A stretch of 64,000 nucleotides of DNA, taken from NCBI GenBank assembly GCA_963556255.1, contig OY744607.1, positions 37,950,722 through 38,014,721 of the forward strand, written 5' to 3'. The translations under genes and the position numbers were made by a program. Source of the stretch: Allolobophora icterica (lineage: Eukaryota > Annelida > Clitellata > Crassiclitellata > Lumbricidae). Below the pieces are notes generated by a model. That model ran no database searches and had not been told where the DNA came from. It worked only from the letters and a program-made list of their open reading frames with translations. Numbering within the stretch: the first letter of the stretch is position 1; every line of letters begins with the position of its first letter. Shown here one piece after another: positions 10,828 to 61,840 of the stretch.

Positions 10828-11221
10828 GTTCACTTTTTTAAACTGAAAAATCGAGTCACATTTACGACTGAGTCACATTTACACCGCGCTGAGCCTTGGC
10901 CCCAGTTGTGTTGTCTTCTCAGCAACGCCCCATCAATCGCTCGAGCAATGTTGTATTTGAAAACTATATTGACCTAAGCGATGCCTTCAGCGCTTTTTTG
11001 ATAACTGCACGCGTGGTCCATTTAAACCGGTCGTGTTGGTTTCAGCTGATATCGTAATCACAAACTCCAAACTTCTAAAGCGCCACTTTGGCCAAGCGCA
11101 GGTAGGTATGTACTTAAAATTTATGAACTGCAATACTGAACAATTAACATCTATGGAATAAAACTCGCCTTGAAGAAATTACCTTGATTTTATTTAACAT
11201 CTAATTGATTTAACATTTAAT

Positions 11222-11252
11222 CTGGGATTAAGATTAGTAATCTTAATCCCAG
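11222..11252. repeat. 31-bp perfect palindrome flanked by 7-bp direct repeat
   Basis: CTGGGATTAAGATTA, a single G, then TAATCTTAATCCCAG form a perfect inverted repeat, and three more flanking bases each side also pair (11219-11255). The flanks are ATTTAAT at 11215-11221 and again at 11253-11259. The same arm sequence with a longer spacer occurs at 58924-58961. No known function is recognised. Confidence 0.85.
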
Positions 11253-11456
11253 ATTTAATTGATAAACCCAATCTCCAAAGTTCCTCGTCCTTCCTCTCCA
11301 AATTACTTCAGGCCAATCTCTGTAGTTCCTGTTCTCTCTAGAGTCGTCGAACGTGTCATCGTACACAGACACCTACGCCCAGCCTTCGACTCTCCTCCTA
11401 TCCAAGATATGCTCAAAGACCAATTCGCATTCAGACCTACTGGATCAACCACAGCC
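11250..11456 (+). mobile_element. Non-LTR retrotransposon reverse transcriptase fragment
   Basis: Translation gives INPISKVPRPSSPNYFRPIS, then VVPVLSRVVERVIVHRHLRP and DQFAFRPTGSTTA. These are the first conserved blocks (RPIS and QFAFRPTGSTTA) of CR1/Jockey-like reverse transcriptases. The fragment is cut by the hAT-like element starting at 11457. It has no catalytic motif (YADD) and is not functional. Confidence 0.8.
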
Positions 11457-20390: not shown

Positions 20391-20685
20391 GCAGTTGGAA
20401 ATTCATATAGGCCCTAGTGCTATTCAGGGCCCTCGTTACGAGAACAAAATACAATAACTTTAGCGGTTGTTCTTTGTTACATAATATTTGATTATAATCA
20501 ACGGTTATATAATATTCATCATACATCGTTTGATTATAATCAAAAGCTGCAAAACTAAGTTTTACGACAAAGGATGCATGGATGCTCAGTACTTTCAGTC
20601 AATCGCATGGCTACGCAGTTTTTGTATGTCGTCATAAAAATAATAGTATGTCTATTTCTATAATTAATCCTTGGCATGGAGCGAA

Positions 20686-20783: not shown

Positions 20784-23700
20784 ATGTCTTACGTTAGAGA
20801 TTGCGCTGCCAATCCACTTGGCATAATCGATCAGTTATTTGGTATGTATGACTTGGATTACGATTGATGATGAGTGCTTTATGCCATCTGGGGATGAGAT
20901 GAGGTGGTTTTGCCGTTGCCTTCCTCACAGACAATTGTAGGTGAGCAGTTTGTCTAAGGTCGCTACGCAGTGGCTTGAACATGCGACCCTCCGGTTACAA
21001 GGCACAAAACATACCGTTATACCACGGCGTCCCATTACGATTGGCTTTATTCCTGTAATCATAATGTAGCGGTTTCTACAGTGCCCACAAAATTAAGCGA
21101 AGCCGTGGGAATTGTCATGTAAAAACAGATTCGGTAGAATCTGGCCGTTTCGGATTCGCCGCAGCTTCTCTATATACAGATTTGCCAAGTTTAGGTCTAA
21201 CCATATATGGGATCATCGGTTCCATACGACCCTCGTATTGACTGGTCGTGTACAGTGTTCCCATACAACCCTTGTATGGACATGCTGGTCGTTTACAGAG
21301 TCACGCCACATGCCACAGATACAAATTCATCAGAATTGGCTGCCAGCAACAGATTTGCTGAATTCCTGAAAATTATGAAAGATATTGTGTGCTGACATGC
21401 CCATAACGATGTTTTTGTATGACCCAAATGATTAATATAGGGGTGTTGTATGGCAATGTCAGTCCCATACTGCTCTCATATGGGAGACATGAGCACTGGT
21501 AGTAGGGGTCAGCCGGAAATCGCCTTGGACATTTGCCTCAGCCGAATATCCCGTTTTTCTGCACTATTCGGAAGTATTCGCCTCGGCAAATACTGTACAC
21601 GCAAATAGTTGCTTGTCTGCCTCACAAGCCAGAATTTGTAGGCTCATAATATCAGCTTTGAGCTTCATCTAGCATTCTAGCATATTCATTTTGAAGAAGA
21701 AAAGTACAAAAAACACCTTGAATACCAGAAGTCCACAACGAAAGTCAAGTCCATTTCACTGATTATTTATTTCTAAAATTCAAAATGTATTAGTCAGTTA
21801 TTACAAGTACAGAAATTTATTTAGATAGTTTTTCATTACATGAATGTGAAGCTTTGCATACAGAACAAATGGTACTCGGTTCGTACCCGGATCCGTCAAA
21901 TAGTACATCCAAATACTCGGATTCGGTACTCGGTGGAAAATGTCTACCCGGCTGACCCCTAACTGGTAGTAGTCCCCGGAGTCAGTCACTGAGAAATTAC
22001 CGACTGAGTTACTGAGTTAGCGATGGTCTTAACGACTTAGTCGACTGGCTGTAGAGGTTGAAACCAATCTATTTCAACGTGACGTTTTCTTGTATGAACA
22101 GACACCTTTTCGATTTAATCGATTTAGGTGAAATCGATGCATACAGTGTAACAGACACCGCTCAGGCAGCTAGTAAGTAAAGAACTGGTGATCTGACATC
22201 GACTGATTGTTAGACAGTTAGTCTGTTAAACTGTGACTCATAATACTTATATAAGCAAGTATAGGCTCCTCTCCTACTGCTGATTTGTTGGTCAAATTGA
22301 AATTCTGGAACCACAGTTAAGACAACGAGCCAAGTATTAAGTGAGTGACGTCACTAGGAGTTGGTAGTTTAGGGACTTGTTTCAACTTGCGGGCTTAAAG
22401 ACAGCGAATGGCGGCAGTTCCATGGACTAGCTGGTAGGCTGTTTTTGTAGAGTTTCAGGAATAGGACAAATCTGTATTTCAAAATCTGTTGCTGGCTACT
22501 GTTTCTGTGGAAAATGTTTGATTTTTGCAATTGTAAGCAACCAGCGATCCCCATATGAGGGTTGCATGGGACCAGTTTGCCATATGGCACCCATATAAGT
22601 TCCATATGGGTCATATAAACTGTTATGCACTATTTGTTGCTGTAGCATTTTCAGGAACTGGACGAATCTGTTGCTGGCTGCCGATTCTGACAAATGTATC
22701 ATTTTATCTGTTGCATGTCATAACAGTCAGATGTTGGTGAATATGTAAATAAGAGAAAATCTGTTGGCTGGATGGTGTCAAAAGACACTTCTCAAGTGCC
22801 AATATTGATCTGATCACAGCTTGATTGATGCCTTGTGCATTATGTGCTAGTGCTATAGCAGTTGTAATAATAAAGGATATTTATATAGCACCTTGTGATG
22901 CTATCATCGTCTTAAGAGCACAGAGACCATCAGTAGAAATATGCTTAGCAATTACAAGCTATTAGAAAATTGTGAAATTTGAGTTGTTTATTGCAGAAGA
23001 AAGTGAGAATGAAGTCACCTGTGAAACTGTCCGAGACTATTTCTCAAAGTTGCTTGAAGACAGGGAATCCCTAATAAAGGTAGTCTGAGTGTGTTATGGG
23101 TGTGGTGTAAATTAAGTTTTTTTGTGATTTTGATTAAATTTGGCTGTTGAATGATAGATTTTCTTCAGTTACTTGAGATGGGTGAAGTTGTGGTCTGACA
23201 CACGGAATGTGTCGTCATGAAACAGAGGGCAGGGAAATGGGATGAGGTTGTGTTGGATGGAGAGAAGAAAGAGGGCGGCATTGATATCGGTAACAGATGT
23301 ATGGTAGATAACACTCGGTGCAAGGGTTTTCAAAGAGACAGACACTGTCAGACAGACAGAGACATACTGGGTCAGGTCAATTCATAGAAAACTGGATAGA
23401 CCTGTATGTTGAATATGAATTTTCTCTTCGGCTAAATCTTTGGTGCCTTTGGACATGGAATCTCATCGTGTGATCCATCATTGAAATTTAACGCACAGAG
23501 CCGCAGATGACTAAAATATGTCTTTAAACAACTTATTTTGTCCCCTATTTTGCCGCCTCTTGGACAGTGCTGCCCGAGGCAGTCGCACCACTTTTCACTA
23601 CCCCAATTACATCATTTCTTCAGTTACTTGAAATGGGTGAAATTGTGGTCTGACACACGGAATGTGTGTTTGTCTTTTGACCAGATTTTGAACCTAGGCA

Positions 23701-39500: not shown

Positions 39501-42500
39501 GGGTCGATATGAGCAGATAACTCGGAAGTCAGATGTGCCAATCAAACCGGAAGTTCTGAAAAACGGTCTTTCTAGAAACTCTGGTGAACTTGAAATCGGC
39601 TATTGGAAAGATCATTTTGTAATTCATTTCAAGTTAGAAAGAAAGTGCAAGAAAATGTCTCATACAGAACCTGAAGTAGTCAAGTACGCAATGTGGTCAT
39701 GGACAAAGAAAAGAAATGGCATGCCGTTTATCGCTGGCGTGAAGTCACCATAAAGATCCTCAAGCATAAACTCGATGTTGTTCCCATCGTTTCGATGGGA
39801 ACAACATCGAGTTTATGCTTGAGGATCTTGTATTCATAGACGTAATGGTATTTAAGAATAGCGGGGAAACTGCATGAATTTTTATCGCGGTAAATGCGAC
39901 GACTGAGTGCCTGTGTATATAAACAATATGGCCACCACTGACTTCGCACCAATAGAGCGCTGCTAGCTATATGATGACTTGTCTCATAGTGCATACACAG
40001 GCACTCAGTCTTCGCATTTACCATACTGTAGTAAATGCCAATAATGTCTTGTACTGTCTTGGACCTCGTGTCTTGGTCTCGGTCTCGGTCTCGGCACCTC
40101 ATTGTCTTGGTCTCGTCTCGGTCTCGGCACCTCATTGTCTTGGTCTCGTCTCGGTCTCGGCACCTCATTGTCTCGGTCTCGTCTCGGTCTCGAAGTTTAA
40201 AGTCTTGCATACAACACTGCACCATGAAGCCTCTGAACATCAGAGCTGCATTTACAGTGAATCAAAAATCCATATGGTTTTTAAATTTGGCAGCATTCCA
40301 CTAGCAAACCAACCTGTTTTTACAGGGTTTTGACATACTGTCTGTAACGAAAGGATGCCAAGAAGCCTGGACACTGCTAACTGTAATTTCACACCCCCTG
40401 TTGGCAGATGGTGCTGCAAAGTTCCTCTTGCATATTTTGATAAGGGTGCTACAGATTCCCAGGTCAAGGATGCTTCAACTTACATAATCTTTAAGTTACC
40501 TCTGTTAATAGCTTTGGTAGACCACACTAACAATCCATGATGATATTAAAAATGAGGCAAACAGGTATATTAACTAAAATCTTCACATTTCATTAACACG
40601 CTGCACTAGACATCTTTTTTCATCCGGATTTACAGACACATTCTTCAAAAGTGAAGTCCACAAACAGCAGAAAATGAGGGGGTAAGAATCTTGAAGACAT
40701 CACAGCAGTTCCAATCCAGTATGGTCCTACACAAAACTTTTTACGTCTGTTAGATATAGATATTTTTCTGCACAATTTAATACTCCGCATATTTGAGAGG
40801 CTCCTAAAAGGCGCCATATACATATCCTGATACAAAGGTCACAGTAATTGATCTACCTACTGATAGTATTATGTATATAAACATTCTCTCTCCACAATAA
40901 TATCCGCCAAATATGATCCACAAGTTTTTTAAGCTACTAAAATCTTAATTTATTCATAATATACGCAGCAACTGCTTTCCCATTAAGCATCGACTCAATT
41001 CTCTTATATTTACCTTCCAGAATCTTTGAAAACAAACTTTCTCAGTTTAAGATCTCGTATGATCACTCCGCTCTGATGACAGTGATCGACAGCAGAAACG
41101 ATCTGACTGAAAAGATCATTAGCCTCCGACTCGCGCAACCGACGCTGGCGTCGGATGTACGAATGAAGATCCTCGAACTGGCGTTGGAATATCACATAAG
41201 CACTGCTACTGTCCAGCAGGATCTCCTCGATGTTGCTGATGTTCGGATGGTAACCTACTGCCCAGTAGGGTGCAAGGATCTCACGATATTTGTTCAGTGG
41301 TATGATCTGTAAGACAGAATAAAAATAACATGAGCCAACAGGCCCTTTGGACGGTGAAAATTATTTTGGACGGGTGAAAATGATTCTGGACGGGCATAAA
41401 TTGTGTAAGATTCTCTTGCAGCACCATCCAGTTCCTTCTCTAAAGCCACTGCCAGCGTTCAGATGACAATTCTGTAAGGAGTAGAGGTTGATATTAGGCT
41501 CTGTAAACAGCATACGGGCACTGCAGTCAGACTCGTAGGGCAACCGGACTGGCGGTTGTGACTTCGTACGCTCACTGCATCAGGCGATCACGACTTTGAT
41601 GCTTTTGGACTGTAGGCAACTCTGTATTTCTGGATAAGGGCCTGTGAGCCAATCATGGGGACATGTCAAGCATGTGTACTGTACAGAATCATAAAAATTT
41701 TCTGATATCCTGTACAACCCTCATGTGGGGCTCAAAATACCGTTTCTGACCATCAGCAAAGCGAAAAAATACAACAAAAGCAATTTAAAAAGCGACACAA
41801 TAATGATGCATCCTGCATATACAGCAGATTTATCAGTTATACTTTCATAATCAGTGGTTAGTAGCGTCATAACCAGCCTTAGTCTGCTTTATGGTTGAAT
41901 CCATACTGCTAAACATTGCCATCTACACATCAACCCTGACTATATTCTTATCATTATTTAAAATCATTAAAAGCTTTACAATATTTATTTATTTATTTAT
42001 TCCGGATATTTCTATAGCGCCTCTTCAAGTCAACTACTACTTCTACTCAGAGGCGCTCCCAACTACAGCATTGATACTGTGCCGGAGTTTTCACGCCGAA
42101 GCGCCATGAGCAATTGCGAGTGAAGGACTTGCCCAAGGTCCGTACGCAGCGGCTAGAGTGGGATTCGAACCTGCAACCCTCCGGTCACAAGGCGCCGAAC
42201 TTACCACTGAGCCACCACGCCCCAATAAACTAAACCAAACAAATGTCAATAACCTAAACAGTAGTGCAGGCCTCCAATCAAGTTTAAGGAAATTAAAAAC
42301 CAGTTTCAGACAATACTTTAAAGGTCTATGTGTAGTTAGATCAAGTATACAAACATTGTCATCAATCTTTCAAAATTCTACTTTTCCAGGTAACTACAGT
42401 TGAAATATTATTGTCTCCATTTACTCAGCACATTTTAACTCAGGGCTGAAAATAGCCAAAATAATTACGTAGGCACATGATTCACTTGAATCCATTAAAC

Positions 42501-45081: not shown

Positions 45082-45509
45082 AAGGCGTGCGATAGTTGGT
45101 GATCTTGCCTTTCACACGTACATGATCAGTAACGTTTGGACAGTGCGTAACAACATGCGACTAATTGGAATAAACCATAATTTATAATAGGCTTCAGTGT
45201 AATTAATTCGGCTTGCTGCCTGAGCCCATAAGAACAATTACATGTTTGTAACTGCAGACCTAATTATCTGTGTCCTTTCATCTATGCGGCATTATATGAT
45301 TGTAACCGTAATTTAATTTACATTTGTTCAGTCCAAAATTACATTAGGCTAGTTACCAAGTCTCCAGAGAATTTTCACTCTAACTCTAAGCTTCCCAAGT
45401 TTTAAGACCCAAAGTCACCAATATTTCTGAAATTTCCTGCAATTATCAGCCTATATGCATGTTAGGCCTACTTGTAAGTGTAAAACCTAAATTTATCAGC
45501 GCCTCGCAG

Positions 45510-46121
45510 TGACCACGTCAGGGAGGCCAACTTCTTCTCCAGTACTACACTAAATCAAGTCCGCAAGAGCCAGATTTGTGGATCAGTTTCGGTGCCAGAT
45601 TAGAATCCGGGGGTCAGGCCGTAGAGACAGCGCTGCGTGGTGCTGGCCTGCTGAGGTGGAAAGCACTGGCGGTGATCTTGTATGACAGGTTGAGGACACG
45701 GGACACTTTTGAACTGATCTGGTCAAAAAAGGGTGGAACACATTATTTTGTTGGGCATTTTTGGCGTTTCTTCAAAATTTAGGGGGACAACTGTGTAGGC
45801 CTACTGTGTCCGCAGTGACCACGTCAGGGAGACCAACTTATTCTCCAGTACTACACTAAATCAAGTCCGCAAGAGCCAGATTTGTGGATCAGTTTCGGTG
45901 CCAGATTAGAATCCGGGGGTCAGGCCGTAGAGACAGCGCTGCGTGGTGCTGGCCTGCTGAGGTGGAAAGCACTGGCGGTGATCTTGTATGACAGGTTGAG
46001 GACACGGGACACTTTTGAACTGATCTGGTCAAAAAAGGGTGGAACACATTATTTTGTTGGGCATTTTTGGCGTTTCTTCAAAATTTAGGGGGACAACTGT
46101 GTAGGCCTACTGTGTCCACTG
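45510..46121 (+). repeat. 306-bp direct tandem duplication
   Basis: 'gtgaccacgtcagggaggcc' to 'gtgtaggcctactgtgtccgc' (about 45510-45815) is repeated at 45816-46121 with almost no change, and the 68-codon frame inside each copy is identical. The duplicated unit spans the left boundary of the hAT-like element starting at 45664, so the duplication followed that insertion. Confidence 0.92.
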
Positions 46122-46181
46122 TCCACCCACTCTTAAAGGTGGGGGTCTAGTCTCCCTCGATCCCCGGGATCGCCGCCCATG
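45664..46181 (-). mobile_element. GGCGGCGATC-family hAT-like MITE, partly duplicated
   Basis: The left end CACTGGCGGTGATCTTG and right end GATCGCCGCCCATG match the family termini. GTGGAAAG lies directly before 45664 and directly after 46181. Because of the tandem duplication a second left end, with its own GTGGAAAG, is at 45970, so the original element was about 212 bp. Confidence 0.8.
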
Positions 46182-47445
46182 GTGGAAAGCGATTGTGGTT
46201 GCAACGGTGGTCGTAGAATTGTGCAGAATCGGATGAAGGATAGATCAGTTTGAAAAAGTTCGCTTTTCAGTCTGGAATGAAACGCTTCAGAGGACAAGGC
46301 AGGCGGAGGAAAAGTACATATTTACAGATGAAAATGGAGGATTAGCCTGCCAGAATACCCGTATGGAGCCCACATAGGACCCATGCATGTTCCCATATGT
46401 GACCCCCAGGGCTGTAGTCGAAATATACGCGGGTATACAGCGTATAGGCTACTTACCTCTAGCGAAATTTGAGAGCGTATACTCAGCGCTCTAGACGAGG
46501 GTATACGCGGGTATACAGCGTATACTTACCTCTGTAGAGACCTGAGTAATGAAATTTTGAGGAAAAAGAGAGGTTTTGACAGGTTTTTTGAGGTTTTTAG
46601 GGCGAATGACTAAAAAAAAAGGTCATCAACTTTTTCAGAGACGAAATCGTAAAAGTCATAAAATTTTAAGGGAATTTGTTAAAAGTCTGAAATTTTTCTT
46701 AGACGAATTCCTAAAAAAGGTCTTCACATTTTTTTACGCCGCTGGTCACCGGCAGGGCCTACTATCCCCCCCTGTAAGCTGGAAGCAATCCCCCCTTACT
46801 GTAAACCTCCCCTATCTCCCATCCCTTCTTCCACTACACCTCCCCACTCCCTTCCTCCCCCTTTCCCCTCCAAATCCACACCCTCTCCCTTCCCCTCCTG
46901 TACATTCCCCCTCTCCCTCCCCTCCCCCTTGAAGTGGGGGTCCGGGGGCCCTCCCCCGGAAAAAATTTGGATTTCTACATTGCCGTAGGTGAGTTTTAGC
47001 GCATTTTTTGGAGCAAGAAAACTGGCTTTGGAAAACTACATTTTAGTTCAACTGAACTGTTGAATTAATTTCTGCAGGTCTCCCAGTGCACTGTAAAAAT
47101 TTTATGGGACAAGCTGTAATAAATATGGCACAGAATTTCAGTGCTACAATTATTGTTGTGTAGTGCAGTGAAAATGAGATTATCAGGTCTTGAAAATATT
47201 CCTGCAAAATAATTGTCGGCTGGATAACACTGTAGTAGGCAGGGATGGAGCCTTTTACCGCTGCATATAACACCAGAAATGTGCAATCGTTAAAATCCCC
47301 ATATATTTGCTAAACAGTGTCCTATATTGCCAAATATTTTAACATGTGTCCCATATTTTGGAAATTTCTAAATCAACAATCAATTTTTTAAATACTTTTT
47401 GCATCTTTCATCAACAAACAATGGCAGAACATAATGGCCAATAGC

Positions 47446-47770
47446 CAGTGTTTAATCTAGTCCCCCTCTTCTGGGAGGGGAAACCAGGTTTCTGGGGGGG
47501 GGACAAGCCAATTTTCCAGACTTTTTCAACTTTCGTCCGTCCAGACTTTTTCAAGTTTCATCTTTAAAAAAGTTGATGACCCTTTTTTTAGTCATTCGTT
47601 TATTTCATGACCTTTTTTAGGAATACGTCTCTCTGGGGGGAACCATATATCACCATGTATCCTGGGGGGAAGCTCTCAACATTATAATATTGCCGGCCTC
47701 TGGGGGGGGAAACATCAATCCTGGGGGGACATTTACCCCCCCCCCCCAAAGACGTCTAGATTAAACACTG
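47446..47770. mobile_element. CAGTGTTTAATCTAG-family element, inner level, 9-bp TSD
   Basis: It is 325 bp with perfect inverted termini CAGTGTTTAATCTAG...CTAGATTAAACACTG and GCCAATAGC on both sides (47437-47445 and 47771-47779). A 9-bp duplication is more like Mutator-type than hAT. Its relative is at 31801-32172. Confidence 0.92.
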
Positions 47771-47947
47771 GCCAATAGCTAAAGAAAAACAAGTAATAAT
47801 GATACACGACAATACTGCTTAGACACTGTATGGTAACCTCAGCAAATATTGCATGGCCCATAATACTGATATATCACAATACAATACTTTAAGAATCATT
47901 AGTAATTAGTCACTTTATTAGTCACTAATTAGTAGACATTAGTGACT

Positions 47948-47981
47948 GTGCCAGGGGGGGAAACTTTTCCCCCCCTGGCAC
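47948..47981. repeat. 13-bp-arm hairpin
   Basis: GTGCCAGGGGGGG, an 8-nt loop, then CCCCCCCTGGCAC. It lies near the right end of the middle nested element and may be a short insertion or a subterminal structure. Confidence 0.85.
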
Positions 47982-48623
47982 AAATTGGAAGCAGTCTGAT
48001 TCCTTCCCCCCCTACGTAGTAGGCCCTGGTCACCGGTAGCGTATACTCACCTCAAATTTTACCACTACAGCCCTGGTGCCCCTCTAATGCCCACGACACT
48101 GCTGGTAGGATATTGAATGATAGGGCCTATAGCAGCGACCAGGCCACTCAAAACGAGACAACGTTTGCTGGATCAGCTGCTTTCATCAACACGAGTTCAG
48201 CGACTCGAGATTTTTACATTGCTTCTTCCGCATTCACGCGTCCCAATCATCAACATCCGGGAGTGGGCTCTGGTCTCTGTTATTATACCTCCAGAAGAAC
48301 TGTCTAATAGGTCAAAATTCGGGTATTTCCATCCATCATGAGCAGACCGTACTGAGCGTAGGCTGTTCAGATTATTGTTGTGGGCCCAACAGACATTTAT
48401 GAAGCCTCACTTCCTGTTATATTAGCGAGGAATGGGCTTCGGACCAATGGCCCAGACGGGCATAAAATATATCTTTCGTGGCTTGGTAACTGTGTTGGAT
48501 TTATGATATTTATCATGGATTGGGTTTCATATTAAGAAAACCTCTTCCTGGTCAAATCATCAGTATTCTGGTAACATTATATGCTAAATCTCCTCAGTTT
48601 CTGAGCGCCACACAAGCTGCGTC

Positions 48624-48751
<128 letters not shown>

Positions 48752-49318
48752 CAGTGGCAGCGATCTTGTCTGAGAGGTGGGGGGGGACAAAGTCGGCCAC
48801 GGTCTCGTCGATGACCGTTTTTGGAAAATGTTGTCCCAAAATAAAAAATTTCTGCCACTTCATCTCCGAAAAATTTCGCTTTCATCTCCCAAAAAACTTG
48901 ATGACTTTTTCTTACACTCTCCTTTTACCTTTTATCTTCCCCACTTCTTCACTCTTTTCCCCACTTTCATTTTTACCAATTCATCTCTGCAAAATATCGA
49001 TTTCGTCTCGAAAAAACTTTAATGACCTTTTTTAGTTATTCGCCACGTTTTACAACTTTTTCCCGTCTCCCAACAATAACCTCATAACCCTTTTCTTTTT
49101 TTGATTGAATTCCTTCTTCTTTCTCATAATTTTTTGGGGGGACACTTCTGCTCAAAAAATTTATTTTTACCTCGTCTGGTCAGAAACGCTGCGAAATCCC
49201 TCACGCGCAGTTACATTTCTCCGCCTTTTTTGGTGTTTCTTCAAAATGTGGGGGGACAAATATATGGAGTGTCCCCCACTCTTAAAGGTCCCCCCATACC
49301 CCTAGATCGCCGCCCATG
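48752..49318 (-). mobile_element. GGCGGCGATC-family hAT-like MITE inserted in a microsatellite
   Basis: It is 567 bp. The left end is CAGTGGCAGCGATCTTGTC and the right end GATCGCCGCCCATG. AGACAGAC flanks both sides (48744-48751 and 49319-49326). It is the opposite orientation to the copy at 55169-55632, with which it shares most of its length. Confidence 0.9.
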
Positions 49319-49488
<170 letters not shown>

Positions 49489-49837
49489 TTATTACAACAG
49501 CGCTATATCACTTCAAGTACACAAGAGCCAGGTTGTTTTGCCAGTTTCGGTGCTAGGTTGGTCGCAGTTTCCCACTTGTGCCTGATCGTACTCGGGCTGT
49601 GCCAGTTCCAAGCCTTTACAAAGGAGGATGGTGACGCTAATCTTCTCTGTTATGACACAGCGTCGTTAAACAACAACTTTAAGTTCACAAGAGCCAGCTT
49701 GCGGCCTGCTTTAGGCTTTAGGCTTAGGCCTACTTTTGGAAGCATCGCATGAACGACTGTGAATGAGCTGGTCTACCTGACGTGCATGGCTTTTGTGCTG
49801 CAGCGGCACTGAGAAATTTCTGAGATTTATAACATTA

Positions 49838-50150
49838 CTAGCAGGTTTACCCGGCGTTGCCTGGGGTTATAAGCCACCACCACCACCACCACCACCACCA
49901 CCACCACCACCACCACCACCACCACCACCACCACCACCACCACCAGAAGTGGGGTTTGGGAGGTTTTCGCCCGTTTCACCATGGAAGCGGTGAAAACGGG
50001 GGACGCGAAGCCTCACACTGGGTGTGTAATGCCCACCCCGAGACAGTAGTGAAGGTTTGGAGTGAAAAGCTCGAAAGCTGTAGAAATGCATCGCGGTCAA
50101 AGATCTGTGACAGACAGACAGAGTTTCTTCTTTATATATATTTAGATATA
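49838..50150. repeat. Retroelement-like 3' repeat with (CAC)n
   Basis: It starts 'actagcaggtttacccggcg' with 'ttgcctgggg', a motif common in animal interspersed repeats, followed by about 24 CAC units (49874-49944). A unique body follows, then 'gatctgtgacagacagacag' and 'tttatatatatttagatata', a typical end of such repeats. Exact class uncertain. Confidence 0.5.
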
Positions 50151-50334
50151 GATATTACATAATATTATCCCAAGTTAGGCACCGTGGAGGATAAGCCGTT
50201 ATAGGGCCGCTTAAAATTGGATCTAATTGAATAGTTTATGCTGCTTACTGCCTCAGCAGCCTGACCCGGCTAGTCTTTAGGCATGCTTCGACTTCCCAAA
50301 GTTTACACAATACAATTACAGCTTTAAATAGTAC

Positions 50335-50490
50335 CCGGAGTCAGTCACTAAGGAGTTACCGACTGACTTGATGAGTTAGCGACTGACTTAGCGACTCAGT
50401 CGACTAAGTCGAATGCTTATCAACTGACTAAGTCACTTAGACTTATCGACTGACTTAGCGAATTGCTAACGACTTCTCATGTAATCAGGT
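50335..50490. repeat. gactgacttagcgact repeat
   Basis: Irregular tandem repeats of 'gactgacttagcgactcagt'-type words, matching 21975-22080. They form overlapping short palindromes such as GTCGACTAAGTCGA. Confidence 0.7.
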
Positions 50491-50642
50491 CTGTCTATTG
50501 GACATACCTCATTAACATACCTGATTACCTAACAACATAATGCATTTTACCGCATACTGCATACTGAGGGTGCCATCATTTCCATGGGCATTGGATGGGA
50601 CCCATACGAATTCTATACGGGTCCAATACGGGAATGTGTGCC

Positions 50643-52243
50643 TAGAGCCCTGCGCCGGCCGCGCCGCGCCGCCGCCGCCGACATTTTGTGGGCGCCGCCG
50701 CCGCCGATTTTTGTTTGTCGGCGCGCCGCCGCCACCGCCGCCGACAATCTGTCGGCGCGCCGCCGATGCCAGTTTGATATGCTTAATTGTTATTGTTGCA
50801 TTTTTCTTGTTTTGCATGATATTGCAAAAATAAGCAAACTATTCTCAGAAATGGCACTTTGATTGGTAGGAACTCGTGTGTTAATGAAGAAGATAAAGAG
50901 TAAACATTGTGGTCTTTATCTTGATATCAAGAATGCATTGTCTTCCTGACTAAATTTGTTTTCCATATACTTTGATGATCTTGTCTTTGTGCCACGATAC
51001 ACACAGTCATTTTAAGCGATATCTTGATACAAGTAGCCAGTGTTGTGATACTGCTGCTCCTATTGCCATTTCCTTAATACCTTGACAACAAAAGCAATAT
51101 GCAATGCATGTCTTTGTATGTGTACTACTGTAACAGTACTACAGTTATCACTCATTCGTTACCTTCATGTTGGATAGCTTCTATAACATTGATTGTAGTC
51201 TTTGAAGTCTGTGGTCTTATTACAATGGTGTAAATTTTTGGCTTAATGTTGTAAGATTAGAGGAGTTTATGAGTGCTATTAATATCAAGATATGCCATTT
51301 AAGTAATAATCTTGCAGAAGCGAAGGTATAATTGATTAATACTTTTGGCTGGAATCTATTAACAGTATCAGTTGACACAGGTTTTGACTTAGTACGTATA
51401 GTATCGAGAATGGTCCTTTTCAGTTTAGTCTGATACAAACAATGGTCTATATGCGGAAACTTTAAATGATGTGGCACCAATTCAAAGAGGCAGCAGACCA
51501 CTTGATAAATTCTTTGAAAAATTTACAGAAGTGAGGCCACTCGGCCAGTGTATTACCATAGGAAAACGTATATATTTACATTTCACTTCATGGCTTCAGC
51601 AGTTCTCTTACTGGGAGAATGCTGTTATCCAGCATCTGCCATGTGACTTGGTGTGTAAGCCTACACTGTATCAGTGCATATATGCAGGTGTATTCATGCA
51701 ATATGCAAATGCATGTTGCTTCATCTGATTACAATTTGCCAATACCTATACACAGTATACAGATATGCAGTGCAATTAAGGATTTTCATATTTGTAAGGC
51801 AAATGTCTGAAGGTGTCTTCTCTTTCAGTCCTTTTATATGTAGTTGAGCTTCAGTGTGATCGAGTGGCTTGAGAGAACTTGGCCCTTTGACTGGTCACAG
51901 GACCAACGGTTGTTCAACTCTCATAGTGACTCACATATGGGTGTCCGGAGAGGGAAGGAGGATTTGCCCTCCTGGATTGGTGAATAGATTTTCCATGCAG
52001 AAACGTAACTTTGCCCTCTGGAAAAATTTAGCCCCTTAGAAAAATTTTATCCCCCTCCGGAAAAATTCCTGCGGATGCCCATGGTGACTCATGTTTCTGA
52101 CTAGGGCACGCCGCGCCGCGCCGCGCCGACGCCGACATTTTGTGGGCGCCGCCGCCGCCGATTTTTGTTCGTCGGCGCGCCGCCGCCGACCAAAAATGAC
52201 CGGCGCGCCGCCGCCGACACTATGACGTCGGCGCAGGGCTCTA
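50643..52243. mobile_element. 1.6-kb hAT-like element with GCC-rich ends and perfect TSD
   Basis: Perfect 15-bp inverted termini TAGAGCCCTGCGCCG, with TGTGTGCC on both sides (50635-50642 and 52244-52251). The left 120 bp and right 140 bp carry the same GCC-rich block in the same orientation ('cgacattttgtgggcgcc', 'gatttttgttygtcggcg'). The middle is AT-rich with no transposase frame. Confidence 0.85.
52104..52243. repeat. GCC-rich 140-bp unit at the right end of the 1.6-kb element
   Basis: It starts TAGGGCACGCCGCG, a decayed version of the TAGAGCCCTGCGCCG terminus, and ends in a perfect terminus, so it looks like a complete mini-element. Its own left flank does not match the right duplication, whereas the outer pair does. 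Confidence 0.65.
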
Positions 52244-54715
52244 TGTGTGCCCTACAATGTCTCCACTCCAAGTGGACATGCTGACAGGGGACAGACCGAT
52301 GGTTGTGAAAATTAGCCTAATGTTAATGTGAACTTGTGAAGCATTTTTTGAGTGTTTATAAAAGGAATAAAGCATACCACTAAGTCCAAGCCAGTGATAT
52401 TTAAATTTTTTAAATAATTACAGTTTCAGTTTTAATTCAGTTTTGGGTTCGTAACTTCTATCTCAGTTCAAGTTTCAGTTTTTAAATAATTTCGGTTTTA
52501 TTACAGTTTCAGTTCTGAAATAATTTCCATTTTCGTTTCAGTTACTGGAAAATATCAGATTCAGTTTCTACATAGATATATTATTTGCATTGCTAGACAA
52601 AAACATGGACGTACAATTGATTAAGCTTATATGTTATCAGCTGTTAACTATAGTAGAAGCACTGTTTTGTCATTGTTTACTTGGAAACCGCGATTAAAGC
52701 AACAAGCAAAATTTTAAGTGAACGAAGTCGCTAGTAGTCGATAGATTAGCGACTGGTTTCGACTTGAGGGCTTAGCGGCGGCGGCGCCGGAGACTTACAG
52801 CTGCACTATAGACTTATAATGTGAATATCCTGTTTTATATACTGAGCAGCTGCGCGCCAAATATATACCCTATATTAAGCCGCTGAGGCCTGATTAGCTG
52901 GAAACCAAGGACACGTACGTTTCTTGGTTGGAAAGGATACATGATATCGTCCAAAGAGGTCCTGGAGGCCTACTTTTGTTATGTAACGCAGACGCGTACA
53001 CAACTGTCGTAACCTCAGTACAATTAGTTCAGTGCCTTCGTCGACCGAAGAGGGAACTTGGACCTACATCTTGATCTCGTTATAGCCTATACGTGGGTCC
53101 TGTAGATCTGTTTATTTTCTCTGGGCTTCGTAGAATCTCCCCGCTCTTCAAGCATTCCAGCGGGTAGAAATTCCTAGAATCGCTCCCTAGTTTTGTGTTT
53201 GGATGGAGTTTATAACTTTATAGCTTCATTGTTCATCTAGTTTACTAGGTATAGACTGAACACACGTCCATTTATCGATAGCCTATAACTCTGCCGTCTG
53301 ACTTTATTTACTAAAACCATCATTAATAATATAAACAAACAGAAATGTCATCAAGTGTGTCAGGGTGTGTCACTGTTGTAAAACACAACAAATGTAGGCC
53401 TAACGCTCCCCTCACATGGCTACAATGACGTCACAATGACCAGTGACGTCACAAACGGGACGATCACTTCGTTCAAAGTAAATTTCAATATACCGTAAAG
53501 GCGTAAACGGCTGCTCTTTTAAACTAACGGCTTAAACTGCGCTTAGTGACTTTATATGATTCAGCGCCGATAAATAATACCCTCTGTACAATTGGAAAAT
53601 AATATTTTTCAAATTTCCTTTACCGTATTAGGACGGGCAAACATCTATAGTGCCTTATAATTTCACACAGTCCTAAGCTCTCAAAGCCTCAGGCCTTTGT
53701 ATTCATCGATATCTATATTTAAATATAGATATCGATGTTTGTATTATGCGATTAATGATGACGTCATAACGATGTTACGTCACGAGCTCTGACGACTGAT
53801 GAGCAACGACCTCCTATGTATAAGAGATGAGAGCAGAATAATACACATTATCATGAATAAAATTATTAGCGAGTATGGATATTAACTTCTGACTTATGAA
53901 TAGTGTCGTGAATAATTTGCAAAATTTCTCAGCGCGACAGAAAAAACGCCAGCAATAATTAATTCACCGAATAGGCCTATAATATTCGTAGGCCAATTCA
54001 AGATGCATATGAAGCCAACGTTCATCTTTTCAAAGAATCTATGCACTAATTATCTATCATTCGATGGTAAGCGGTCGGGTGGAATGCAATAAGTGGCCAT
54101 ACGAGGAAATACTTAACATGGGATGATAGCCTAGGCTACTGTGATCACCTAATGATGCGCAGTACCGCGGTGTATCCGCAGCCTAGAGGACTGATTTACA
54201 CGCTCAGTGAAAGCATAAACAGGCCTTAACCCACTGTTTGTGTTTTGTACCCAGTGCATTTGAAACTATGGGCCCAGATGTTTCTTCCGGGGCAGACATT
54301 CAAGGTTGAATCAGCTAGGAGCCAGACGAGGCTTTGTGCGCCTTTCCATCCACATGAAGCACCATAGTGCCGCTATATTCAGAGGAACTTTACAACGGAT
54401 CACGAGGCCTCATAATCCAAGACACTTACCTTGAGCTGCTTATGCCTAAACAATTGTTAAATGATGCCTATCTTTTCGTCTCTTTGTTACGTTACCATTA
54501 CGTCACTCTCTCTTTTGTACCCGCTCTCTTTCCTTCTGTTTGTTACGTCACTGATCTATCTGACTCTTTCTGTCTTTCTCCTTGGTTCCTCGACCTTTCC
54601 TTCTGTTCCTTAGGCAGCAGGCTTATGTCACTACTCACTCTCTGGTATCCACTGTTTTTCCTTCTGTTTGTTACGTCACTGCTCTCTCTCTCTTTCTGTC
54701 TGTGTCTGTCTGTCT

Positions 54716-55023
<308 letters not shown>

Positions 55024-55168
55024 GTTACGTCACTGCTCTGTCTGTCTCTGTCTTTCTAGCGTCGTAGAAGTAACCAGATTAGATTAGGTTATCGGATAAT
55101 AAAAAAATCGGTTGAATATGACGCAGTTATCGCATCAATCGCTATGCCGACTCACGGAACGCAGAATG

Positions 55169-55632
55169 CATGGGCGGCGATCCCGGGGGGTCGAGGGGGA
55201 CAAGACCCCCCCACCTTTAGGAGTGGGGGGGACACGCCATGCATCGGACCCCCCCCCACAAATTTTGAAGATACACCAAAAAAGGTCAACAAATGCAGCT
55301 GTGTGTGAGGGCGAAAACGAGTTTTCAGTGCCATTTTGACCAGAAAAGTAGTCTTTTAGCAGAAGTGTCCCATTGTGTAAGAGAAGAAAAAAAAGGAAAA
55401 AAGGAAGAGAATCCAAAATATTTTTGTAGAGATGAATTCGGAAAAGATAAAGTTGTTGACATCAGGAAGGGTGATTCAGGAAAAAGTGACGAAGGTAAGG
55501 TTGAGGACTAAAAAAAAAAGATGAAGTGTGAAAAAAAATTTGGGGGACAAGATTTTAAAAAAAACGGTCGTCGACGAGATCGTGGCCGACTTTGTCCCCC
55601 CCCCCACCTCTCAGACAAGATCGCCGCCACTG
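55169..55632 (+). mobile_element. GGCGGCGATC-family hAT-like MITE, complete, perfect TSD
   Basis: It is 464 bp. The left end is CATGGGCGGCGATC and the right end GATCGCCGCCACTG (inverse CAGTGGCGGCGATC). GCAGAATG flanks both sides (55161-55168 and 55633-55640). Best reference copy of the family. Confidence 0.93.
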
Positions 55633-56364
55633 GCAGAATGCAAACAAGAAAGTGCCAACTACAGTATAGGGCTATAGGCCTAGCTACTGCTTACAGCCAT
55701 TAATGAGATGGGATAGTCCGATCTAGCTATAATACATAGCTACATTAGTAGTAGGTCTAATATTGCTAGTGACCATTAATTTTCAGATAGGCCTAGCTTT
55801 GACAACAATTAAAGTGAAGAACTCAGAACTGCGCGGTTAGAAAACATCGAACATCTAGCCTTTAATTCGTTTCGCTGACATAAGCGCCACCTGCAGGGCC
55901 CATACACGTAGGCGTAGGCCTATCGGGCTATGCAGGCTTGTATAGGGCAGATCTTTCAAGTCCACAATCGCCTAATGCGCAGTTTAACAGGCGTTGTCAC
56001 GTCAGACAGGCGTCACTCAACGCGCAGACGACCAGCCTTGTTGTTTCAGATGACATAAGCAAAAGTTGGTCGCATATTAATATGCTTTCAATGGGTTCAA
56101 GGTCATTCGCTAGCCCCGTTTTAGGATCGTTGGATTTCTGAAATATTTGCCAGGGTGGGGTCAAAATTTAGTAAATGAGATTGCACTTGTAATGCGGTCT
56201 GCAGGAACGCATAGTTCAACAGGGTGAAGGGGCACGATGGAAACGCTTTAATTGTTTCCAACTAGAGTTCTAGCGTTATAATAATTAATGTAATGTAAAT
56301 TAATATCCGAAATATCTCAGCTCACACAAAAGCCATGTCAGAGGACCAGCTTAATGCTTGCGCT

Positions 56365-56475
56365 ATATCAAATCAAGTCCGCAATAGCCAGGTTATTTGT
56401 TCCGTTTCGGTGCCAGGTCAGAATCAGAGAGGTCAAGTCGAGGAGACATCTTATATGGTGCTAGTTAGTCTAGAT
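56365..56475 (+). repeat. Dispersed repeat (also 45548-45650, 45854-45956, 49500-49570)
   Basis: Shared blocks 'caaatcaagtccgcaatagc', 'cagg', 'tttcggtgccaggtcagaat' and 'gtcaagtcgaggagaca'. Class unknown. Confidence 0.7.
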
Positions 56476-56502
56476 CCGGCCTGCATCGATATTAGACTGC
56501 AG

Positions 56503-58308
56503 GGTGAGTTCGGATAAAGTGAACCAACGGGTTGAGTGAACCAATTCTGGTAGGAAGCGTATGTACAGCAAGCTGTTAATATCACGTGCGCGTGTGCTCT
56601 ATTTTTACATACTATTGCCATTTGGCTACTCATTTAGCGGGTTATTTGAAAATTACCTAGCAGCTGCATGTTTTGAGAGGCGACGAGATGTGGGATGTCG
56701 AAGAAACTTCCAAAAATTTAAGTGTCCTACTTTTTAACTGAGGTGTAACAAAAGTCAGTTTTTCATGTAAATGCCTTACACTATGCAGCCGAATTTTTTC
56801 AGTATTAATTTGTAGGTTTTATGGTATAGAAAAACATTGTTGAAATGTCGAAATGAACGAATACACGCTCTATAAATAGAAATTTATCGTATGGTTCGCT
56901 TTACCTGTACGTGCTGGTAAAGTGAACCATGCAAGTTCAACTAAAGTGAACCAGTGGTTCACTTTTACTGATAGGCTCCTATAGCTTTGGCGAGCCTGGT
57001 AAATGAAATAGGCATATGAGTAGGCCTAGATGTAGGCCCCTAATATCAGTTATTGCTATAATACAAAAAACTTGCATTGTAAACAAAATTTAATGAATAC
57101 AAGTAAAATTTTTATTTTCTAAGAACTACACATTATGTTTTTAAGGTTTAAGTTAGAGATTTATTTGCACCACCATGGGTAGATTCCACCATCATGGAAC
57201 AAGACATAGAAATAAAGGAAAGACCAAGATTCCATCCTTTCTGTTGGTCTAAGTAATCGTAATGTTCAACTTGAAGAAGTATATGGCCTAAACCTAGCCA
57301 GCAGTGTTGAGACTCGGCCACTGTCTGATCCAGTTTCACCTAGTGGTGTTGAGAGTGCATCACTTCCCAGGCTCAGTTCATCCACTGGCATTGATACTAG
57401 ATCAACAGTGAGTCACCCCTGTTCTCCCAGTAAAGCTGAGCCTGCTCAACAGATGACCGCACCTAGCATTCAGTTGATCAGGAACTTGGTCTTTGCTACA
57501 TAAAATGAGACTAAATCTTCCTTGAGCAAGACCCGAAAGAACGAAGGCGAGACTGCAAAGCAACATCTTCGAAAAACGCCAGCACTGCAGGCAAAGGTAT
57601 TCCTGTCTTGTGTGTGGCGAGGACTATGATGAATCATGGATTCAGTGTAGAAAGTGTTAAGACTGAGCACATGAGGATTGTGCTAACCGACAAGGATTAC
57701 TATTATTGCCACATTTGTATTATTCATTAGGCTAACTGCACGGCACTAGGTTTGGACTAGTTTTAGAAAAAGGAGTCCATTTGAAGTGTTCAATAGCTTC
57801 AAGTGTTGTTATTCTTCTGTGCAATGATATAGACTTACTATTAGTACTGTGCTGCAAGGGTTCTTGCATCTTTTGTAGATCGATTAATACTTTTGTTGAA
57901 CACCATAACTAAGTGTTCTTAAGATTGACGTTTGTAGTTCAATTTAGGTTGGAATTATTAAAACCAGTGCAATTGTTTACCTAATACTGTGATTTATCTA
58001 TGTCTTTAAGCTATGTTTATGTTGGTTCACTTTAGGGAATATATTTTTATACTGGTAAAATCTGGTTCACTTTATCATAGAACACTGGTTCACTATATCT
58101 GAAAAGTCAGGTAAAGTGAACCGTTTGACAACACAACTTTCAAAGGCTATTTTACATACTTAACCTGAATATAACTTCAGTTTTACTGTATATCCTTTTA
58201 GAGCAATGAATGATCTATAAGATAGTGTATTTAGATCTTTGACGTGCCACACCTGAAAGCGGCAAAGTGGCCCGATATGAAAATTGGTTCACTTTATCCG
58301 AACTCACC
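56503..58308. mobile_element. 1.8-kb decayed DNA transposon with GGTTCACTTTA subterminal repeats and PHD-like remnant
   Basis: Perfect 25-bp inverted termini beginning GGTGAGTTCGGATAAAG. About ten copies of GGTTCACTTTA in both orientations lie within 500 bp of either end (for example 56514, 56887, 56915, 56943, 58023, 58060, 58087, 58113). The central region reads CLVCGEDYDESWIQCRKC, then two stops around D, then AHEDCAN, a PHD-like zinc finger of the kind found at the C-terminus of pogo/Tigger-like DDE transposases. No complete transposase and no clear TSD. Confidence 0.75.
57596..57725 (+). pseudogene. PHD-like zinc-finger remnant of a transposase
   Basis: The Cys/His spacing C-x2-C ... 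W-x2-C-x2-C ... H-x3-C, with a later CHIC-like pair in another frame, is preserved despite in-frame TAA and TGA where Lys and Trp would be expected. It lies centrally in the 56503-58308 element. Confidence 0.6.
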
Positions 58309-58923
58309 ACACTTTCTATCGAATATTTGAATTATTTACGGTCATTTGCGTGAAAAGCTTTCGGGGACTTTGGAGAACTTTCAAACTGGCACCTCACAAT
58401 GTCATGCCCTGAACTAAATAATAGATTTTTTCACAAATGGAATGACATAGGCCTAACAATGAGCCTCTATAGTCATTTCTAACACCCTATAGTCATGGTC
58501 AGGTGAACGATCATTAGGCCTATCTTCCATGCGTGATGTAGTGTCTTTACTCTTTAGTTAAGTTAATAGTTAAGATGTTTCTTTTACTGTTGATATTTTG
58601 TCTACCATACGTGTGCATGATGTAGTATCCTTGATTATGTTAATGTTTTTTCGTTTACTTTTGACACTTTTGCCTACGAACAATTTAGGCCATCCCTTTC
58701 CTGTAATATACTACTATGGTGGCCCCATCTAGCGGGGTATGCGATCCCTTCGGGGTCTCCAGTGTAACCCAGAACATACTGTTTCGTTAAGTATTATTGT
58801 TTCGATGTATTTTTGTTTCTCTGGATGGTTACCGAATAAAAAACTGAACTGAACTGAACTGAAAAAAATTGTCTAAAGTTAAACTTAATAACAGTAGACT
58901 TTTTCATAGCTGAAGTGACGTAG

Positions 58924-58961
58924 CTGGGATTAAGATTAGTAGGCCCTAATCTTAATCCCAG
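58924..58961. repeat. 38-bp palindrome, second copy, inserted in minisatellite unit
   Basis: CTGGGATTAAGATTAG, spacer TAGGCC, CTAATCTTAATCCCAG. The flanks are GACGTAG (58917-58923) and AACGTAG (58962-58968). Sister units read 'gaagtgacgtaacaaagg' without interruption, so the palindrome is an insertion with a 6-7-bp duplication. Confidence 0.88.
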
Positions 58962-59537
58962 AACGTAGCAAAGACCTTTATTCTCTAAAATAATGTAAAC
59001 TTATAATGACGATGCACTTTTCTATAGCCTAATTGAAGTGACGTAACAAAGGCTTTTATTCTATGAATCTACTAAATACTGTGTTTCATAGGCCTAATTG
59101 AAATGACGTAACAATTGGCCTTTGTTCTAGGCCTATAATTCGAAAAATGACTAAATAATGCGTTTATAAATGAAGTGACGCAACAAAGGCCTTTATTCTA
59201 TAAATCTAAAAATGACTAAATAATGTGTTTATAATGAAGTGACGTAACAAAGGCCTTTAGAAATTAGGCCTACTAAGTAATGTGTTTCATGTTTGAAGTG
59301 ACGCAACAATAGGTTTTCGGTTTAAAATCTATACATATAGCCTAGTTTCCTTATATGCAAATTTGTCCTGGTATAACGCTACGTCACAAAGCCTTTCTGT
59401 TCTATTGTGAAACCGTTTGTGACGTCACTATACTGTCGTCTTGACGACGGTCGTCTTGACGACGGCGTTAAGAACATTTTAACCAACGTCATAATTATGA
59501 CGGGAAAATACACTAGTTAAAACATAAGGAATACAAT

Positions 59538-59764
59538 CAGGGCTGTAGTCGAGGGTATACGCAGGTATAGGGCCTACAGCGTATAGGCCTACTCAGCTCT
59601 AGAGGCCGTATACTCACCTCACAAAATATTTATATTTATTTATATTAAAATACTGTAGCGTATACTCACAAAATGCTGTAGTGTATAGGCTACTCACCTC
59701 TAATTTGTTTCGGAAAACTAACCGGTAGCGTATACTCACCTCTAATTTTACCACTACAGCCCTG
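59538..59764. mobile_element. hAT-like MITE (CAGGGCTGTAGTCGA family)
   Basis: It is 227 bp with termini CAGGGCTGTAGTCGAGGGTA and 'accactacagccctg'. The flanks AATACAAT and CCTACAAT match at 6 of 8. It is inserted in the minisatellite region. Confidence 0.85.
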
Positions 59765-59884
59765 CCTACAATATACATGTTTCATAATTAAAGTGACGTA
59801 AAAAGGTCATTTTTCTTAACATTTAAATTTACTAACAAAAAACGTATTTCAAAATTGAAATGATGTAACAATAGGCCTTTATTC

Positions 59885-60377
<493 letters not shown>

Positions 60378-60700
60378 GGTAAGGAGCTGTTTGAATTCAA
60401 ACCCTTCCACCGTATCAAGAAATACTGAAGAGCAATTATATATGGCTACACCAAAACGAATATTCTTGTCACCCATAATAACAGTAAATAGGGCCTAACT
60501 GTTTCAGATGGGGGAAGGAAATGCAATATTCAAGTATAGTGACTAAATTTCGCTCAGAAGGCAGTTTAAGGAGAAATCAAAATTTAAATGTAATTTATAA
60601 CTTCTATACTGCGTCGGTGTCTAATGCATGAGGCATCAGCCGATGGCGCACCAAAACCAAGCTGTAATAAGGTTAAGCGATACCTGCTGTTACCAAAACC

Positions 60701-61243
60701 CAGGGGCGTAACTTTGGTCAAAAGTGGGGGTACCGATTTCTTAGATACACGAAGCAAGGCGGAGACTGCGATCTCCGGGAAGGCACAATAATAAAATTTT
60801 GATTGGCATCGTTATGAAAGTGGGGGGGTACGCAGGGCTGTAGTCGAGCGTATACGCGGGTATACAGCGTATACTTACCTCTAGAGAAATTTGAGAGCAT
60901 ATACTCATGGCTGTAGACGAGGGTATACAGCGTATACTTACCTCTGGGAACGAAAATTTAAAAAAAGAGAGGTTTTTAAAGGTTTTTAGGGCGAATGACT
61001 AAAAAAAAAAAAAAAAGGTCATCAACTTTTTCAGAGACAAAATCGTAAAAAGTCTGAAAATTTTCTGAGAATTGGTGAAAAGTCACAAATTTTTCCTAAA
61101 AAAAGGTCTTCACATTTTTTTTTACGCCGCTGGTCACCGGTAGCGTATACTCACCTCAAATTTTACCACTACAGCCCTGGGGGTACGGTACTCAGTCCAA
61201 AAAGTCGGCGGTACCCCTCGTACCCCCACAAATTACGCCTATG
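60701..61243. repeat. CAGGGGCGTAACTTTG family, copy 2, split by a hAT MITE
   Basis: It starts 'caggggcgtaactttggtca' and ends 'tcgtacccccacaaattacg', 'cctatg'. The hAT MITE 60833-61179 interrupts it between 'gggggtacg' and 'gtactcagtcc'. Without it the copy is about 190 bp. Confidence 0.65.
60833..61179. mobile_element. hAT-like MITE (CAGGGCTGTAGTCGA family), perfect TSD
   Basis: It is 347 bp with termini CAGGGCTGTAGTCGAGCGTA and 'accactacagccctg'. GGGGTACG flanks both sides exactly (60825-60832 and 61180-61187). Reference copy for the family. It reads through the site where the 46753-48028 element entered its sister. Confidence 0.94.
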
Positions 61244-61304
61244 CGTCTAGGCCTACTTGTGCGCAAACGAATGCTGGAAGTTGATGGCTAGAGGTAACGC
61301 TCGT

Positions 61305-61370
61305 AAATAAGCTAGTGCCCAGCGCTTCGGTTTCAAGTGGCGCTGTAGAAATGTGGAGTTTACCTGTTTA
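61305..61370 (-). repeat. Interspersed repeat fragment (gtaaactccaaatttctaaagcg family)
   Basis: 'aataagctagtgcccagcgc' to 'tagaaatgtggagtttacc' is the inverse orientation of the fragment at 6295-6370. It is the most distant of five copies. Confidence 0.6.
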
Positions 61371-61672
61371 CGTGTTAAAACCGCCGACTTGAACTTTTCG
61401 ATTAGGACTGAATTTTTACTTGTGATGGTTGAATAGTCTGCAGAGCGTTTGCGACATAGTTCGGCAAAATATCCCTTCCGTAGCTTCCGTAGAAAATGCG
61501 CGAAAGCGCTTACCAAAAGCCGTCTCGATTTTGAGCTTTATTCTCATAGTATTCGCCAGATGGCGGCAGCGTTCGCAATCGCATTCGCCAAAGCCTTCGA
61601 ACCAGGTCCGAAAATATAATTTATTATAGTGTGTTTTCTGCCAGCGTGCTGTTGACTTGTATGGAGTGTGCA

Positions 61673-61840
61673 GAGTGAATTAATTTTGAAGATTAGCTCA
61701 AGTCAGCTACAGACGATTTCATTTTAATATCTGAAATTTTACCTTCCAGTTCAAGTAGGCCTAAGACCTAGAGTTTGACAGTTTGAGAAATAATGTGCAG
61801 TTGACATTTCTTAGTATTTTTGGCACTGCTTCAAACCGTA
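61673..61840 (+). repeat. Interspersed repeat shared with 31130-31285
   Basis: Same block order as in MCMBP intron 12 ('gattagctcaagtcagctac', 'acgatttcattttaat', 'ctgaaattttaccttcc', 'cagttgacatttcttagta'). Confidence 0.7.

Follow-up and report, generated by a model that had tools for sequence, protein, structure and literature searches.

A 38-bp palindrome in an annelid minisatellite, very probably the scar of an excised P-superfamily transposon

A palindrome of 38 bp that breaks one unit of a minisatellite, in the 64,000-nucleotide stretch of Allolobophora icterica DNA analysed here (the window), is very probably the footprint left by excision of a DNA transposon of the P superfamily, and probably not a self-contained mobile element. 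Its arms match the ends of a long transposon of the same genome, and palindromes of the same construction recur across that genome between short direct repeats. These scars represent a known kind of footprint, of which newly seen members are described here that are well preserved and repeated across the genome. Among the papers listed in literature searches, judged by titles and abstract openings, none gives a genome-wide description of such scars in this kind of animal.

The interrupted minisatellite unit

The palindrome (58924-58961) consists of 16-nt arms around a 6-nt centre, TAGGCC, and the order at 58912-58973 reads gaagtgacgtag-CTGGGATTAAGATTAG-TAGGCC-CTAATCTTAATCCCAG-aacgtagcaaag. An earlier note on this DNA had described a palindrome inserted in one unit with the empty site visible in sister units, and the sequence is as described: all five neighbouring units aligned show a 45-bp gap at this position, equal to the 38 bp plus a 7-bp duplication. 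The duplication proposed there, ACGTAG, holds as a 6-bp core. The direct repeat is better taken as 7 bp, GACGTAG on the left and AACGTAG on the right, with one substitution. At the position of its first base all five sister units have G, so that the left copy is probably the original one and the substitution probably arose on the right.

The window was scanned for inverted arms (11 nt or longer) lying between direct repeats (6 bp or longer), which gave three matches (at 11222, 53704 and 58924; Table 1), against none in ten windows shuffled in 500-bp blocks. A chance association of palindrome and duplication is unlikely. The match at 11222-11252 carries the arm of the 58924 palindrome, with ATTTAAT on both sides. 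Adjoining it, the segment 11259-11621 gives a weak match to reverse transcriptase (E 0.045, below cut-off) and is possibly an old retroelement.

Several other features of the window were noted. A 457-bp segment at 21505-21961, with inverted ends GGGGTCAGCCGG, lies between ACTGGTAGTA copies at 21495-21504 and 21962-21971, and has the appearance of a further DNA transposon whose target duplication is long. A perfect inverted repeat at 39753-39829 (37-nt arms, 3-nt loop), a perfect palindrome at 47947-47982 (TGTGCCAGGGGGGGAAA...) and an inverted repeat at 20487-20544 gave no match in the duplication scan. At 45505-46117, a 306-bp unit is present in two head-to-tail copies that are 99% alike. Neither an Rfam nor a tRNA scan gave a match in the window.

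Table 1. Scars, duplications and empty sites in the window
Feature	Position	Strand	Basis or family
Left target-site duplication GACGTAG	58917..58923	+	sequence, fixed-position flanks, sister-unit alignment
Probable excision scar: 31-bp end-to-end join of two transposon ends plus a further 7-bp insertion	58924..58961	.	
GGCCCTA, 7 bp gained within the scar (central TA to TAGGCCCTA)	58942..58948	.	difference from the 31-bp class
Right target-site duplication AACGTAG, first base unlike the left copy	58962..58968	+	
Five sister minisatellite units with empty site	59030..59330	+	alignment
Left target-site duplication TTTGTATT	53696..53703	+	second P-type family
Probable scar of 34 bp, arms CATCGATATCTATATTT	53704..53737	.	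second P-type family
Right target-site duplication TTTGTATT	53738..53745	+	
Left target-site duplication ATTTAAT	11215..11221	+	
Second probable scar, plain 31-bp form	11222..11252	.	family of the 58924 scar
Right target-site duplication ATTTAAT	11253..11259	+	

Source elements and genome-wide copies

The genome comprises 1.118 Gb in 328 contigs, and its size, microsatellites and gene content appear to be those of an animal. It was searched for the 15-nt arm CTGGGATTAAGATTA, which occurs 280 and 283 times on the two strands, against 6 and 9 times for the reversed control. The search suggested in the earlier note, for the arm facing its inverse, gave 61 places genome-wide with a gap of at most 30 bp, and none for the control. 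Long elements with the same termini, which the note also proposed to look for, are present in the form of an element of 9,859 bp and of derivatives of 424-469 bp. These long elements share termini and duplication length with the palindromes, and the idea of end-to-end remains of a larger element was thus right in outline.

The 9,859-bp element, on contig C1, lies between two copies of ATACAAC, and its inverted ends match perfectly over 33 bp. It contains an 815-aa frame that matches the Pfam families TNP-like_GBD (1e-19), TNP-like_RNaseH_N (6e-19) and TNP-like_RNaseH_C (2.2e-8), with PF21787, PF21788 and PF21789 each above cut-off, and that aligns with the solved Drosophila P transposase 6p5a (phmmer, E 8e-16). 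Tnp_P_element stays below cut-off in the same frame (0.031), a point against the excision model, and no THAP domain was matched at E 0.1 within this frame, the one examined. A protein search with the frame returned 48 relatives, the best of them unnamed (62% identity over 97%); those named at NCBI include proteins designated THAP9 in Mytilus (34-52%) and, from Ptychodera flava, a protein listed as uncharacterised (42%). On its predicted transposase, inverted ends and 7-bp duplication, the element is classed in the P superfamily. Two extra frames of this element (locus L034) run opposite to the transposase: one at 309-662, whose weak match to a C2H2 zinc finger stays below cut-off, and one of 380 aa at 1811-2950 without Pfam match.

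Genome matches to the 815-aa frame (55 scored among 336 candidates) include some with internal stops. The short derivatives compared, six of six, are 438-460 bp long and correspond to element positions 1-171 and 9547-9859 at 79-89% identity, each between identical 7-bp flanks. One derivative is present in 40 copies at about 100% identity over the full 460 bp (40 scored of 419 candidates), and the family therefore appears to have moved recently.

A locus table was built from the window's two copies, L002 and places from the arm listing, 63 loci in all; it does not include the 9,859-bp pair or six additional long pairs, whose outer ends lie 424-462 bp apart. Lengths form two peaks: 12 of the 63 loci measure 424-469 bp and 42 are short (24-42 bp), while nine are without a clear end. 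No locus among the 54 of measured length lies between 60 and 424 bp. L017 is tabulated as 60 through the choice of a second match; inspected by eye, it retains about 20 nt, on one side only. Inspection by eye of the loci without a clear end gave two scars with worn duplications (L005, L057) and a one-sided scar (L061); single ends without partner (L021, L070, L075), which speak against the excision model; and apparent chance matches (L069, L072, L074).

The junctions were analysed in 50 listed palindromes of the 61. The pattern demands both 15-nt arms intact and detects palindromes of up to 60 bp; shorter remnants, such as those of 24-27 bp in the locus table (L012, L055, L056, L062), are absent from the set for that reason. 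All 50 fit a partial left end followed by a partial right end. They fall into 21 sequence classes, a variability typical of end joining, and a single 31-bp sequence makes up 22 of the 50. Once the TA insertion present in four of them is set aside, the two ends overlap by 3 nt in 25 and by 2 nt in seven, meet without overlap in 12, and are separated by 1-3 extra nt in six. The 31-bp class is the product predicted by a 3-nt match, TAA/TTA, in which a tail ending ...CTAA anneals at GATTA within the other tail. Retained ends measure 15-22 nt, with a mode of 19; the floor of 15 nt is set by the search pattern, whereas the ceiling of 22 nt is informative, since palindromes of up to 60 bp would be caught. 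Ends of 21-22 nt (4 of 100) sit less well with the excision model, but depend in part on how a variable A run is counted.

The earlier note had also asked whether genome-wide copies lack flanking duplications. Read at fixed positions, the flanks form an exact 7-bp duplication in 44 of the 50 and agree at six of seven bases in four, including the 58924 copy; the remaining two are L095, with an 8-bp duplication, and L108, with five of seven. At least six of seven bases thus match in 48 of 50, against at most six in 50 (mean 1.2) in a mismatched-pair control. We relied on this fixed-position count because the TSD finder, which allows at most one mismatch, is biased. Six of the 50 are further copies in duplicated DNA, leaving 44 independent loci. 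Base counts of the duplications, combined with their reverse, give a target preference of GTTNAAC.

The scar at 53704 would be a like scar left by a second family, P-type by its HTH domain alone. Its 16-nt arm occurs 401 and 388 times in the genome, against 0 and 2 for the control. Among 100 listed places there are 12 close pairs, one pair of 127 bp and 16 pairs separated by 2.4-6.1 kb, in 14 cases by 3.3-3.9 kb. The 8-bp duplication is exact in all 12 close pairs, and there is none at the 127-bp pair. A 261-aa frame inside one 3.5-kb pair matches Tnp_P_element, the P-type HTH domain, above cut-off (1.5e-9); within the PDB set it matches no P transposase, and it does not match the 815-aa frame of the first family. 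A single second-family end (CATCGATATCTATATTTAGACC) was also seen, in an alignment read by eye, inside a 469-bp first-family derivative (L071).

Excision and alternative origins of the scars

The proposed sequence of events begins with an element with ends CTGGGATTAAGATTACTAAAAGGG... that would have entered the minisatellite and duplicated 7 bp, a step legible in the sequence itself. The transposase would then have released the element by widely staggered cuts some 19-20 nt in from each end, a distance suggested by the retained length and by the comparable 17-nt stagger in Drosophila P. The donor would thus be left with two 3' tails bearing the first 19-20 nt of each inverted end. Joined via the 3-nt match TAA/TTA, these tails would yield the 31-bp palindrome, the commonest scar; the join is read from the sequence, and the end-joining pathway is the presumed route. 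A later, second event would have turned the central TA into TAGGCCCTA, an insertion evident by comparison whose agent we infer. The retained lengths of 15-22 nt, with their mode at 19, are consistent with a long staggered cut such as the 17-nt cut of Drosophila. A comparison of 48 scar loci with 13 elements by their 90-bp flanks brought up no pair of loci of which one holds the element and the other the scar, a point against the model.

Drosophila P offers the closest parallel. Its excision leaves 17-nt 3' tails (PMC2895639; stagger also in PMC7776569), and the repair junctions of the P{w-a} assay, as given in Table 1 of PMC2895639, retain the duplications and parts of both ends, joined through 2-3-nt microhomology, bluntly or with short inserts. 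The architecture of the footprints is the same here, and the remark in the earlier note that it knew of no described family of this size and sequence accordingly fails in mechanism, the tabulated Drosophila scars being of the same design (PMC2895639). The two systems differ in that Drosophila P has 17-nt tails and an 8-bp duplication, whereas about 19-20 nt are apparently retained here with a 7-bp duplication; and in that the Drosophila junctions are assay products, while the present scars are natural and genome-wide. Long-microhomology joins in the same Drosophila table lose nearly all of both ends, and the 15-nt pattern used here would miss such products.

Other members of the superfamily resemble this family in part, on the features reported in the sources cited. 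The element 1360 of Drosophila makes a 7-bp duplication at the target motif GTTNAAC (PMC3276498); the same duplication length and motif preference are found here, and the likeness is drawn from these two traits alone. Galileo, also from Drosophila, makes 7- or 8-bp duplications with the consensus GTATTAC (PMC4168063), and is likened by duplication alone, of 7 bp here. Zebrafish Pdre2/THAP9 has 13-bp ends CATACCTGTCAAC and 8-bp duplications, and its excision in Drosophila cells gives larger donor deletions (PMC10983969). The present family is like it in having a P-type transposase of a non-insect animal, direct duplications and internally deleted copies, and unlike it in its 33-bp ends and 7-bp duplications.

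Among other origins for the palindromes, internal deletion through interrupted gap repair, in which copying from the sister chromatid after excision is broken off and followed by joining, is common in the Drosophila assay reported in PMC2895639 and a plausible route to the 424-469-bp derivatives. As an account of the short palindromes we consider it improbable, since it would spread lengths, whereas the interval from 60 to 424 bp is empty among the 54 measured loci, and retained ends stop at 22 nt though the pattern allowed palindromes of 60 bp. A minimal mobile palindrome, one of the two readings offered in the earlier note, would be a unit of 31-38 bp moved in trans by a P-type transposase with duplication of 7 bp. 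The single 31-bp sequence shared by 22 of the 50 listed copies and the duplications at nearly all of them could be read that way. Yet the other 28, in 20 further classes, are different joins, each explained by end joining, and the 31-bp class is already predicted by the 3-nt match; on general grounds, moreover, the unit seems too short for both ends to be paired in one complex. The short forms being 21 classes of end joins and no single copied sequence, this reading finds no support, and we hold it to be very improbable. A local hairpin-forming variant of the minisatellite, named in the earlier note as a refuting alternative and here taken as a product of replication slippage, would suit the position within a repeat array but is refuted by the 60 other copies in the genome, one of them at 11222 outside the array, and may be set aside almost entirely.

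Insertions at the central TA

Under the excision model, the 58924 palindrome corresponds to the most frequent scar, of 31 bp, in which TAGGCCCTA has taken the place of the central TA. Two other loci are 31-bp scars with TAGGCCTA and TAGGCCCCTA, and one is a 38-bp scar with TAGGCCTA. The same insertion at TA is present in the derivative L008, in contrast to eleven other aligned derivatives that are without it, and alignments of paralogues oppose TA to TAGGGCCTA, TAGGCTA and TAGGCCTA. Of 370 gap events of 3-10 nt, 19 are such paralogue insertions; they fall at seven listed places that are not all independent and of which window 46110 is doubtful. A precise insertion at TA, with TA duplicated, is seen in the four scars, in L008, in L060 compared with L041, and at window 46447 and 59130.

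In 213 kb made up of the window and the neighbourhoods of scars and elements, a non-random sample, TAGGCCTA occurs 125 times against 2.45 expected, an excess of about 50-fold, and its distinct contexts number 106; when flanked by AT, CG or GC instead, this core occurs 5, 1 and 1 times. Within the window, TAGGCCTA is crowded in the last third, with 18 of 19 sites at 45463-61756.

The centre of the palindrome may bear the mark of a second, separate and far more abundant process of precise micro-insertion, TA to TA-GGCC-TA, acting in many unrelated contexts, a proposal that we consider about as likely as not. Footprints of Tc1/mariner elements are located at TA. These elements leave small footprints, reported as 2-4 bp (PMC7913693), for which reason the likeliest origin of the central change is the footprint of another transposon, one specific for TA. 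The centre TA-GGCCC-TA resembles such footprints in being a small insertion at TA, and departs from them in its core of 3-6 nt and its abundance, and in that the 213 kb searched yielded no element whose ends match.

The alternative for the centre, that TAGGCCC is filler from the joining of the ends with no later TA-specific insertion, has in its favour that end joining often adds a few nucleotides. We regard it as unlikely: removal of the G's, the C's and one TA restores an observed scar exactly in four of the four listed palindromes with this centre (three of the 31-bp and one of the 38-bp class), and the same TA insertion is found away from scars, in L008 and in the paralogue alignments. The nearest case to an irreducible centre is L061, which would need two insertions (TAGGCCTA and TAGCCTA).

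A source with ends matching the inserted bases was sought as inverted pairs TAGG...CCTA (threshold 14 of 18) in the 213 kb, and among the ten pairs obtained, sorted by eye, no TA-flanked GG...CC element was identified. Three share a common C-rich start (window 12718), five have the octamer TAGGCCTA as their very start (L036 holds four of them and L060 one) and one, in L001, scores 14 of 18; none of these was judged a source. The tenth, at window 21503, looks real and is the best non-repetitive pair. It corresponds to the element at 21505-21961, which is not plainly TA-specific because it lies between two 10-bp ACTGGTAGTA copies and not TA alone, and it was not taken as the source. A literature search for the letters of TAGGCCTA gave none on transposons by title among the matches listed. 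If the process is real, its marks, with a core of G's followed by C's, would rank among the densest left by insertion in an animal-like genome.

The scars caution against taking every short perfect palindrome between duplications for a mobile unit. They would also provide clean, short test sites that expose a second, TA-specific micro-insertion process. As a natural record of the repair of breaks with long 3' tails, whose starting ends are known, they may allow the cut position and the joining rules of P-type transposition to be read outside insects, with a cut at an estimated 19-20 nt or so as against 17.
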